Translations under genes and position numbers: made by a program | IMG/VR virus record: IMGVR_UViG_3300037847_004236 | Coordinates: 1 to 31,961 of that record | Source: a virus | Strand: one strand, 5' to 3' | Length of the DNA stretch: 31,961 nucleotides | Shown here: piece after piece, positions 3,803-31,961 of the stretch | How positions within the stretch are numbered: position 1 is the first letter of the stretch | How the letters are laid out: each line of letters opens with the position of its first letter | Notes under the pieces: model-generated | Databases searched by the model: none | The model's input: only the letters and a program-made list of their open reading frames with translations | What the model was told of the DNA's origin: nothing

Positions 3803-3818
3803 AATAAATATATTTATA
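3803..3818. promoter_or_regulatory. Divergent T4-type late promoter pair
   Basis: The 16-base sequence AATAAATATATTTATA is a near-palindrome. Read on the minus strand it contains an exact TATAAATA (3811-3818) facing the gene starting at 3789. Read on the plus strand it contains AATAAATA (3803-3810) facing the gene starting at 3878. TATAAATA is the known T4 late-promoter core. No sigma70 -35 box is visible. Confidence 0.55.
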
Positions 3819-28441: not shown

Positions 28442-28605
28442 TGAAATTGAAAGATTTAGAAAAAAGAATCTGCAAGATTGAACGCACTTTGGAAAAAATA
28501 ATGAATAACCATCTTCATCATATCCAAGGCTACCAATTCTACATCCTTGCTTTGACAGGATTGATCGTTACCATGTTAATAGGCATCTTTATTAAGGTGA
28601 TGTAG
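28441..28605 (+). CDS. Holin candidate, XhlA-like layout (54 aa)
   Basis: Starts at the ATG overlapping the fibre stop (TAATG). The N-terminal half is a charged coiled coil (MKLKDLEKRICKIERTLEKI) and the C-terminal half is one transmembrane helix (~29-52, YQFYILALTGLIVTMLIGIF). This layout, coiled coil then C-terminal membrane helix, is that of XhlA-type holins and small phage membrane proteins of the lysis or tail-injection class. The position at the end of the late block fits a lysis gene. No endolysin accompanies it, so the call is tentative. Stop and next start overlap (TAGTG). Confidence 0.55.
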   Translation: MKLKDLEKRICKIERTLEKIMNNHLHHIQGYQFYILALTGLIVTMLIGIFIKVM

Positions 28606-28892
28606 TGCCCAGGGCAAAATACCATAATTACGGAGCGGATTATTATAGAAAATGGGGCACCAAACGACCCAAATACACCCCTCTCCAATTTCACGAACAG
28701 GACAACCGTTGTCCTAGATGCAAAGGCAGGTCTTTTGTGGCAGAAAGGCCCCTAAATCCACAAAGCAATTATAGGTCATACGGTTATATTACCAAAAGAG
28801 TGCTGTGGCGCATAAGGTGTGCCACTCCAAATTGCACGGAACCATATTGTGTTGTTCTCAAACCTGAATACTGGGACAGCACAGGATCATAA
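28605..28892 (+). CDS. Zinc-ribbon-like small protein (95 aa)
   Basis: GTG start overlapping the upstream stop. The N-terminus is Tyr-rich and basic. CPRC (Cys36, Cys39) and a second cluster CATPNCTEPYC (Cys72, 77, 82) could bind one zinc ion in a ribbon-like fold. A Tyr/Arg-rich segment (NYRSYGYITKRVLWRIRC) lies between. Function unknown; a DNA- or RNA-binding regulator or a virion protein are both possible. It is the last gene before the main late terminator. Confidence 0.55.
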   Translation: MPRAKYHNYGADYYRKWGTKRPKYTPLQFHEQDNRCPRCKGRSFVAERPLNPQSNYRSYGYITKRVLWRIRCATPNCTEPYCVVLKPEYWDSTGS

Positions 28893-28895
28893 ATA
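28888..28895 (+). promoter_or_regulatory. T4-type late promoter motif (CATAAATA)
   Basis: Overlaps the stop of the zinc-ribbon gene. Downstream comes only an untranslated stretch of about 90 nt and then a terminator, so any RNA made would be short and non-coding. Confidence 0.35.
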
Positions 28896-28908
28896 ACATA
28901 CACGACAA

Positions 28909-28965
28909 GATAACCAGTTTTTCTCTTTTTATAGACTGTCATCTTCGAAAAAAAGACAGGTTATC
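28909..28965. repeat. Nested inverted repeats upstream of terminator
   Basis: GATAACC (28909-28915) pairs with GGTTATC (28959-28965). Inside it CTGTC (28936-28940) pairs with GACAG (28955-28959), overlapping the outer arm by one base, so the two may be alternatives. An A-run follows TTCGAA. It looks like RNA structure in the leader before the terminator. Confidence 0.4.
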
Positions 28966-28983: not shown

Positions 28984-29037
28984 AAGGGGCCTGCGTTTGG
29001 ACACTTATAGTCATTAAACCCAAATGCGGGCCTTTTT
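28984..29037 (+). terminator. Rho-independent terminator of the late block
   Basis: GGCCTGCGTTTGG (28988-29000) pairs over 13 positions with CCAAATGCGGGCC (29020-29032), with two G-U pairs, around a 19-nt loop. It is followed by TTTTT (29033-29037) and flanked on the left by AAA. It separates the late operon from the accessory region. Confidence 0.85.
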
Positions 29038-29048
29038 CACCTTTATTG

Positions 29049-29077
29049 TTGACTTTTTTCAATCTGTGCTATATACT
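29049..29077 (+). promoter_or_regulatory. Sigma70 promoter, accessory region
   Basis: TTGACT (29049-29054), 17-bp spacer, TATACT (29072-29077), with a TG upstream of an alternative TATATA -10. The predicted start near 29084 is one base before the ATG at 29085, so the messenger may be leaderless. Confidence 0.8.
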
Positions 29078-29084
29078 AGCGAAG

Positions 29085-29408
29085 ATGACAAACCAATCTG
29101 ACATATATCGCGAAATAAAGACATGGTGTGCTAGAGAACGCATTTCGTGGCAGTGGATCACCAAATATCCTCAGGATCTTTTTGAGGATATCCAATTGTT
29201 GCGTAAAACAAGGACTCAATGTTGGCACACATGGTCCAAGCATCACAGAGGTGTATGGGCAGGCATTTGGGGAGTCACAACCAAGAAGAAGAGGCGCATT
29301 TCACAAAAAAACTTAACTAAACTAGAACAGGCAGTCCAAACAGCACACACAATACAGCACACAATCAAGGCGCACAGACACCAAGTCACAAACGGAAACA
29401 TGATATGA
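29085..29408 (+). CDS. Trp/His-rich basic protein, possibly leaderless (107 aa)
   Basis: The start at 29085 (MTNQSDIYREIKTWCARERI) is chosen over a longer frame from 28971 because a strong promoter lies immediately upstream and a terminator lies inside the extension. The protein has five Trp in residues 13-64, a basic core (TKKKRRISQKNLTKLEQAV) and a His-rich C-terminus. No family is recognised. It may bind nucleic acid. It is followed by the tandem-hairpin region and may share its transcript. Confidence 0.6.
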   Translation: MTNQSDIYREIKTWCARERISWQWITKYPQDLFEDIQLLRKTRTQCWHTWSKHHRGVWAGIWGVTTKKKRRISQKNLTKLEQAVQTAHTIQHTIKAHRHQVTNGNMI

Positions 29409-29428
29409 TGGTAAAGGTTTCCGCGTTG

Positions 29429-29793
29429 CTGAACTGCTGGATAGGTTCAGACACACAACGGTATGCCAGTCTTCCTGTGAAGGTTGATCTACACATAGTC
29501 AAACTTTGATCGTAATTGATTGTCCAGTTCTCTTGCACTGAGGCGTAAAGAGAGGTTGAGAGATAGATAATGCTTGGTTGCATTATCCATTCTCTTGACT
29601 TCAGCGTAAAGGATCTCATTGAAAACAAAACAAAAGTGACGCAAGTCACTTTTAGACTGAACTTGTTCAGTCTCACTAAATACACAAGGATAGACTGTAT
29701 CTACTACTAATGCCATTGGGGTAACCTTAGTCTATCTTATCCTTAACGGGGGCACACAGGTTCACGATCTTCCCAGACCTTTCCTGTGTGTCC
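29429..29793 (+). ncRNA. Candidate structured RNA: tandem hairpins in an ORF-free stretch
   Basis: No convincing gene exists from 29409 to 29909. The stretch holds at least six helices: CTGAAC/GTTCAG (29429-29434 with 29445-29450); GATAATGC/GCATTATC (29566-29573 with 29580-29587) inside AGAGA/TCTCT; AAAAGTGAC-GCAA-GTCACTTTT (29632-29653, GNRA loop); AGACTGAACTTGTTCAGTCT (29654-29673), stacked directly on it; an 11-pair helix with bulge (29686-29696 with 29729-29744); and an 11-pair helix (29750-29760 with 29783-29793). GCGTAAAG occurs twice (29543-29550 and 29604-29611). Large phage RNAs such as GOLLD are one comparison, but no known family is recognised. The strand is assumed plus. Confidence 0.5.
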
Positions 29794-29801
29794 AAAAAAG
29801 A

Positions 29802-29830
29802 TTGACTTTCCCAAACATCTGTGTTACTAT
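29802..29830 (+). promoter_or_regulatory. Sigma70 extended -10 promoter for methyltransferase operon
   Basis: TTGACT (29802-29807), 17-bp spacer, TACTAT (29825-29830) with TG one base upstream of the -10. It shares the string ATCTGTG with the promoter at 29049. Predicted start is near 29837. Confidence 0.75.
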
Positions 29831-29843
29831 GCCAACAACACTA

Positions 29844-29890
29844 AGGAACCTTCCCTAACAACATTATCGTTTTAACATATCAAGGTTCCT
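29844..29890 (+). promoter_or_regulatory. Leader hairpin before methyltransferase gene
   Basis: AGGAACCTT (29844-29852) pairs perfectly with AAGGTTCCT (29882-29890) around a 29-nt loop, in the ~75-nt leader of the gene starting at 29910. No Shine-Dalgarno lies between hairpin and ATG. It may be a cis-acting RNA element. Marine manA and wcaG RNA motifs occur before sugar genes and are worth comparing, but I cannot assign it. Confidence 0.5.
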
Positions 29891-29909
29891 CAGTGACTTA
29901 AATATTGTC

Positions 29910-31762: not shown

Positions 31763-31915
31763 CTATTTCAGGAACTCCAACAATTCAATTATCAGCAGTC
31801 CCCACAAGGGTATCACCAGCATGGTGTGATATATGGTCCACAACAGCCAGCGGGGGTGACGGTTCAAATTCTGTGCTAACCGTTTCTGCTGGCGCAGTCG
31901 CTTCGCTCTCGTCAT
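31763..31915 (-). CDS. Small membrane protein across the contig join (50 aa)
   Basis: Starts in an ATGA overlap with the lipoprotein stop (position 54 in the left copy, 31915 in the right copy) and is complete only in the right copy. The N-terminus is strongly basic (MTRAKRLRQQKRLAQN), followed by one long hydrophobic helix (residues ~23-48, WLLWTIYHTMLVIPLWGLLI). By the positive-inside rule the N-terminus is cytoplasmic. Next to a lipoprotein gene, it might act with it at the envelope. Spanin-like organisation is not supported because the periplasmic part is too short. The two contig copies differ at residue 18. Confidence 0.65.
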   Translation of the reverse strand: MTRAKRLRQQKRLAQNLNRHPRWLLWTIYHTMLVIPLWGLLIIELLEFLK

Positions 31916-31961
31916 TTAACCACAGAGTGTCCTCTGCCCTCCAGACACTTCTTTGCTATCT
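31862..31961. repeat. Terminal redundancy, right copy
   Basis: Right copy of the 100-base repeat at 1-100. Joining the copies gives a unit of about 31,861 bp. The single mismatch changes codon 18 of the leftward 50-aa membrane protein (Asn in this copy, Ser in the left one), as expected for strain variation in a metagenome. Confidence 0.9.

Follow-up and report, generated by a model that had tools for sequence, protein, structure and literature searches.

To our knowledge, few structured RNAs of phages have been described, and the best-studied of the ornate ones have no known function. GOLLD and ROOL are phage-encoded folded RNAs with elaborate secondary structure and pseudoknots, of unknown function, which have been reported near tRNA islands and which form homo-oligomeric RNA cages (PMC12286853). 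The manA and wcaG motifs, from marine metagenomes and cyanophages, are structured RNAs in the 5′ UTRs of metabolic genes (PMC2864571). The present study analyzes a structured region in the window, by which we mean the whole 31,961-nt stretch of viral DNA. The RNA predicted there resembles GOLLD and ROOL as a folded RNA of a phage with no known function, and manA and wcaG as a structured RNA in marine phages. Unlike GOLLD and ROOL, it has no Rfam match and no tRNA nearby (ARAGORN predicted no tRNA or tmRNA in the window), and it and its counterparts in related phages have small genes as partners at a locus that varies and measure about 265–385 nt, compared with over 800 nt for many GOLLD RNAs. 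Unlike manA and wcaG, it lies 3′ of a small gene, again without an Rfam match. Two or more RNA types backed by compensatory changes (A and B1, and likely B2 too) fall outside every Rfam model, the phages that carry them have cultured pelagiphages as nearest isolated relatives by terminase, and the tie between RNA type and protein, together with swapping at one locus, offers a direct handle on the function of such RNAs.

Genome and layout of the locus

The virus record is 31,961 bp long and is probably a complete genome, as a 98-nt repeat is common to both of its ends (1–100 and 31864–31961). The large terminase is closest to that of lake phage DSL-LC06 (64.5%), followed by those of pelagiphages HTVC111P and HTVC202P (about 50%); DSL-LC06 has been reported to make up an orphan cluster together with 50 uncultivated viral genomes (PMC10611076). 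Records of phages and plasmids contained no similar DNA. A scan of ten mostly non-structural proteins revealed no replication gene, and the cumulative GC skew reaches its minimum near 4 kb, away from the RNA locus.

About 20 related loci were gathered from tandem-hairpin searches and from a scan with a conserved 54-aa protein encoded just upstream. Their order is constant: the 54-aa protein, a zinc-ribbon-like protein, TAAATA with a hairpin, a promoter, a small gene, the RNA and its tandem hairpins, after which come TAAATA, further hairpins and then variable cargo genes (Table 1 gives the features of the window). The preliminary description had placed the structured span between two strong sigma70 promoters. 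The upstream one is highly conserved, with identical TTGACT-N17-TATA spacing and the ATG 6–7 nt past the −10 box in all 14 loci listed (the window and 13 related), yet it is the small gene that comes first downstream of it. Because the −10 box ends so close to the ATG, the 107-aa gene and the small genes of the related loci are probably translated from leaderless mRNAs. The second promoter exists as a match at 29802–29830, but no counterpart was seen in the relatives inspected, and matches of this kind occur here no more often than chance predicts.

Table 1. Positions of features at the RNA locus of the window
Feature	Position	Strand	Remarks
Zinc-ribbon-like gene	28605–28892	+	Precedes the locus in related phages
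TAAATA, late-promoter-like	28890–28895	+	Followed by hairpin 28909–28965
Terminator-like hairpin GGCCTGCGTTTGG / CCAAATGCGGGCC, then TTTTT	28988–29037	+	Read from sequence; long loop
Sigma70-type promoter TTGACT-N17-TATACT	29049–29077	+	Conserved
Small gene for a basic 107-aa protein of no family	29085–29408	+	Homologue in L042
Type B1 RNA core	29409–29612	+	Conserved with L042:4964–5167
Helices CGUUG/CAACG and CUGAACU/GGUUCAG	29424–29460	+	C-G to U-A compensatory pair 29434/29445
Hairpin with GNRA loop	29469–29488	+	U-A to C-G compensatory pair 29476/29481
Long hairpin, 12-bp lower and 8-bp upper stem	29552–29602	+	C-G to U-A compensatory pair 29573/29580
H5	29566–29573/29580–29587	+	Upper stem on the 12-bp lower stem
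H6, first tandem perfect hairpin	29632–29653	+	3′ end of the RNA
H7, second tandem hairpin	29654–29673	+	Arms vary between phages, complementarity kept
TAAATA, late-promoter-like	29677–29682	+	Second unit begins
H8, leader stem-loop, loop with TGCCATTG	29689–29736	+	Arms 29689–29696/29729–29736
H9, stem-loop, loop with ATCTTCCC	29750–29793	+	Arms 29750–29760/29783–29793
H10, 14-bp hairpin	29839–29895	+	Just past the weaker promoter match 29802–29830
TAAATA	29899–29904	+	5 nt ahead of the ATG of methyltransferase-like gene 29910–30437

Fold and conservation of the predicted RNA in the window

All of the hairpins listed in the preliminary description are present where it had placed them, as are the immediate adjacency of H6 (9 bp, loop GCAA) and H7 (9 bp) and the repeated octamer GCGTAAAG (29543 and 29604). 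The density of structure, which had been called unusual, exceeds chance by both shuffling and a genome-wide scan. The fold of 29400–29820 has a z-score of −5.1 on the plus strand, where none of 100 shuffles did as well, and of −4.9 on the minus strand. In the genome-wide scan 29551–29750 comes first of 212 segments of 200 nt (z about −9), its energy lying 31.6 kcal/mol below the shuffle mean as against 18.4 for the second-ranked segment. Taken on its own, 29409–29612 exceeds its shuffles only weakly in stability (z −1.9), so that support in this 5′ part is comparative; the homologue in the related locus L042 is strong (z −4.2).

The window and L042 make up RNA type B1, with sequence and fold in common at the same locus and downstream of the same gene. 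They differ by 26 substitutions in 205 columns, and on the two-sequence consensus fold these give three compensatory pairs, five one-sided consistent changes and no disrupted pair. Since that consensus was derived from the same two sequences on which it was scored, simulated partners that were re-folded served as a fairer control, and here the consensus energy beats 99.75% of simulated pairs (P 0.0025), with P 0.07 for the count of double changes. Scoring the window's own fold against L042 gives three double, five one-sided and five broken changes (P 0.0175 for double changes). From these comparisons the B1 structure appears well supported by compensatory changes, for a sample of two sequences. 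A search with the pattern CACACAACGGTANGCCAG returned, beyond the contig of L042, only two near-identical stretches that are protein-coding in look.

At the 3′ end of the RNA, five of the nine H7 pairs vary among loci and are complementary every time. The GNRA loop that had been attributed to H6 is present as GCAA, but in relatives the same loop reads GCA, TCA, GCCA, GTCA, GTGA or GACA, and H7 loops vary freely as well, so that GCAA of H6 is not a conserved GNRA loop; an exact search with the joined H6–H7 sequence found no match for the same reason. A GNRA loop held in both B1 sequences is that at 29477–29480, GUGA in the window and GCGA in L042. As to features of an intrinsic terminator, TTTTAG comes after H6, its T run lying within the stem, and H7 has no U-tract after it. 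Palindromes resembling H6 in L023–L025 look unrelated.

That the stretch contains no plausible gene is borne out, in that stops interrupt each of the six frames of the L042 homologue, which also carries an indel, and the minus-strand ORFs at 29386–29685 and 29489–29716 were rejected as genes for want of conservation in L042. Covariance models of Rfam 15 (GOLLD, ROOL, HEARO, manA, wcaG, phi29 pRNA and others) gave no match in the window at gathering score; at relaxed thresholds, the region in the window, type A and the related loci gave chance-level matches only, far below gathering scores. Two of the checks proposed at the outset, against Rfam and for compensatory changes in related phages, favor the original suggestion and, at the level of sequence comparison, support a structured phage RNA that belongs to no known family. 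The suggestion of a single large RNA did not hold, as the span is two units: the structured 3′ portion of a putative early transcription unit (roughly 29409–29673) and a putative late-promoter leader (29677 onwards). By the comparisons above, 29409–29673 is noncoding, conserved and structured.

RNA types at the locus and their possible role

Related phages carry other RNAs in the same place, and each RNA type has a single small-gene type as its companion. Type A (L018, L019, L022, L031, L032, L046, L047, L055 and L056, nine distinct sequences) sits 3′ of a DUF3820-like gene (Pfam QSregVF_b), B1 3′ of the 107-aa gene, B2 (L020, L030/L033) 3′ of an 83-aa basic gene, and C (G1, L043) 3′ of a 93-aa gene. 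In the fold of type A, a 9-bp stem surrounds three hairpins as well as one of the two strands of a likely pseudoknot of 7 bp (GGCAGGU with ACCUGCU), which is invariant and hence outside covariation support. Across 71 type A pairs tested, 98.0% of cells were paired and 16 pairs had two-sided changes, compared with a mean of 9.7 in shuffled controls, none of 500 reaching 16, and with 0–2 for slid structures; the shuffle control ignores relatedness, and the slid control allows for it yet favors a structure derived from the same sequences. The consensus energy of B2 is better than that of 400 of 400 controls, and C has too few changes for a covariation test. Types A and B1 have the support of compensatory changes, and B2 likely has it too.

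Comparison by covariance model did not show type A to be homologous to B1, B2 or C: neither the window nor L042 matched type A model R1 significantly, and R2 misses type A. Because the A and B1 models are blind to one another, membership in one family is not claimed. The string ACGGTA, common to the types, was set aside as a sign of homology since its pairings differ between types and it may be chance. In bacterial genomes, 47 pattern matches to type A were found, none significant with R1, and these were attributed to chance.

On several counts the locus looks hypervariable, and its unit seems accessory and subject to diversifying pressure: gene and RNA change together, the RNA is sometimes missing, with coding-looking sequence in its place after a relative of the C gene in L048 and L050, and assemblies break, contig ends soon past the locus being commoner than uniform placement predicts (three loci with >4 kb downstream left out). 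In L019, type A lies at a different place, with tail genes on one side, terminase genes on the other and no DUF3820-like gene, and similarity begins at the RNA, which argues that type A is an independent unit, a gene in its own right.

Several smaller observations concern the same region. Most contigs of L038–L058 stop within about 3 kb past the gene of the 54-aa protein, as if strain variation broke the assembly. The 31,729-bp contig G001 opens with 3′-terminal sequence of a type A RNA (L026) and finishes in a type C RNA (L027), its ends perhaps deriving from two strains with different cassettes. L055 and L056 are nearly identical loci that differ sharply in the type A core, as if type A variants had recombined. 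In L003 (OR003941) an unannotated relative of the C-type small gene with an in-frame TGA occupies 607–760, and after it comes a structured noncoding stretch with tandem hairpins.

The explanation that we favor, held with a little more belief than doubt, is that 29409–29673 is an early-transcribed, trans-acting accessory RNA in swapped small-gene cassettes, followed from 29677 on by a separate late leader. We infer its transcription, processing and trans action as follows. Host RNA polymerase would start early at the 29049–29077 promoter, translation of the 107-aa protein would begin at or beside the 5′ end of the transcript as on a leaderless mRNA, and the 29409–29673 RNA would be the 3′ part of the mRNA of that gene or be processed from it. 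The downstream RNA would then fold, with the tandem hairpins bounding its 3′ end, and would work in trans as an accessory RNA, perhaps paired with the 107-aa protein, and the stem-loops from 29677 would form the separate leader of the late promoter. A role in host takeover or counter-defence is a guess, as is the thought that an accessory unit under diversifying pressure would fit a host-directed role better than a core role. The wider proposal, that a family of uncultured phages has a dedicated hypervariable locus for interchangeable cassettes, each of one small protein with one ornate RNA and in no fewer than four pair types, which serve as RNA-based tools for taking over the host or countering its defences, is tentative and we would sooner doubt it than accept it.

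The main rival, which we judge rather unlikely, is that the structure acts in cis as a 3′ UTR, terminating, stabilising or regulating the small-gene mRNA and having no role of its own. Position counts in its favor and against an RNA gene, as the RNA is directly 3′ of a coding gene in all loci but one, 3′ UTR-like, including the window, L042, B2, C and most type A loci; each RNA type is tied to one gene type, and terminal tandem hairpins could stop exonucleases. It accounts poorly for L019, where type A stands without its gene and similarity runs from the RNA start, for the long invariant unpaired stretches and likely pseudoknot of type A, which exceed the needs of a stabiliser, and for H7 having no U-tract. 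An element acting as DNA (replication origin, packaging or recombination site), with palindromes mimicking RNA hairpins, is improbable: an origin is needed somewhere, as no replication gene was recognised, and several perfect palindromes are present, but substitutions preserve G-U pairs in an RNA-like manner, the structured stretch is missing from some relatives and the GC skew minimum is elsewhere. DNA methyltransferase genes downstream of the RNA in L018, L022/G1 and L030, and a class-I methyltransferase in the window, could suggest a riboswitch-like leader controlling these or other cargo genes; the different downstream genes of L019, L020, L031 and L055, and the fact that downstream genes mostly have their own TAAATA past the tandem hairpins, make this quite improbable. 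Finally, 29677 onwards is indeed a leader and the 5′ core is only mildly stable by itself, as would be expected if terminators and leader hairpins of the ordinary kind had clustered by chance with no defined RNA, but with folds conserved in three RNA types and compensatory changes within B1 we consider such a cluster very improbable.

TAAATA elements and putative leader stem-loops

The element with which the second unit begins recurs in the window at 3805, 3867, 4832, 7082, 8248, 15349, 17012, 17096, 27982, 28890, 29677 and 29899. In intergenic DNA it favors the gene strand over the other by 10 to 1 in the window and similarly in G1 and G12, the counts in the three genomes being 10, 7 and 10 against 1 each, and it precedes ribosome-binding sites, starts 5–6 nt off, or stem-loops. 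Across relatives, the loops of H8 and H9 are kept (TGCCATTG and ATCTTCCC) and the arms change with complementarity, and from this pattern both are read as putative leader hairpins of late transcripts. The T4-type late promoter is TATAAATA. By analogy TAAATA may be like a late promoter, as it shares an AT-rich core and a place ahead of late genes, here with strong strand bias, and differs in that a stem-loop or a leaderless start often comes after it.
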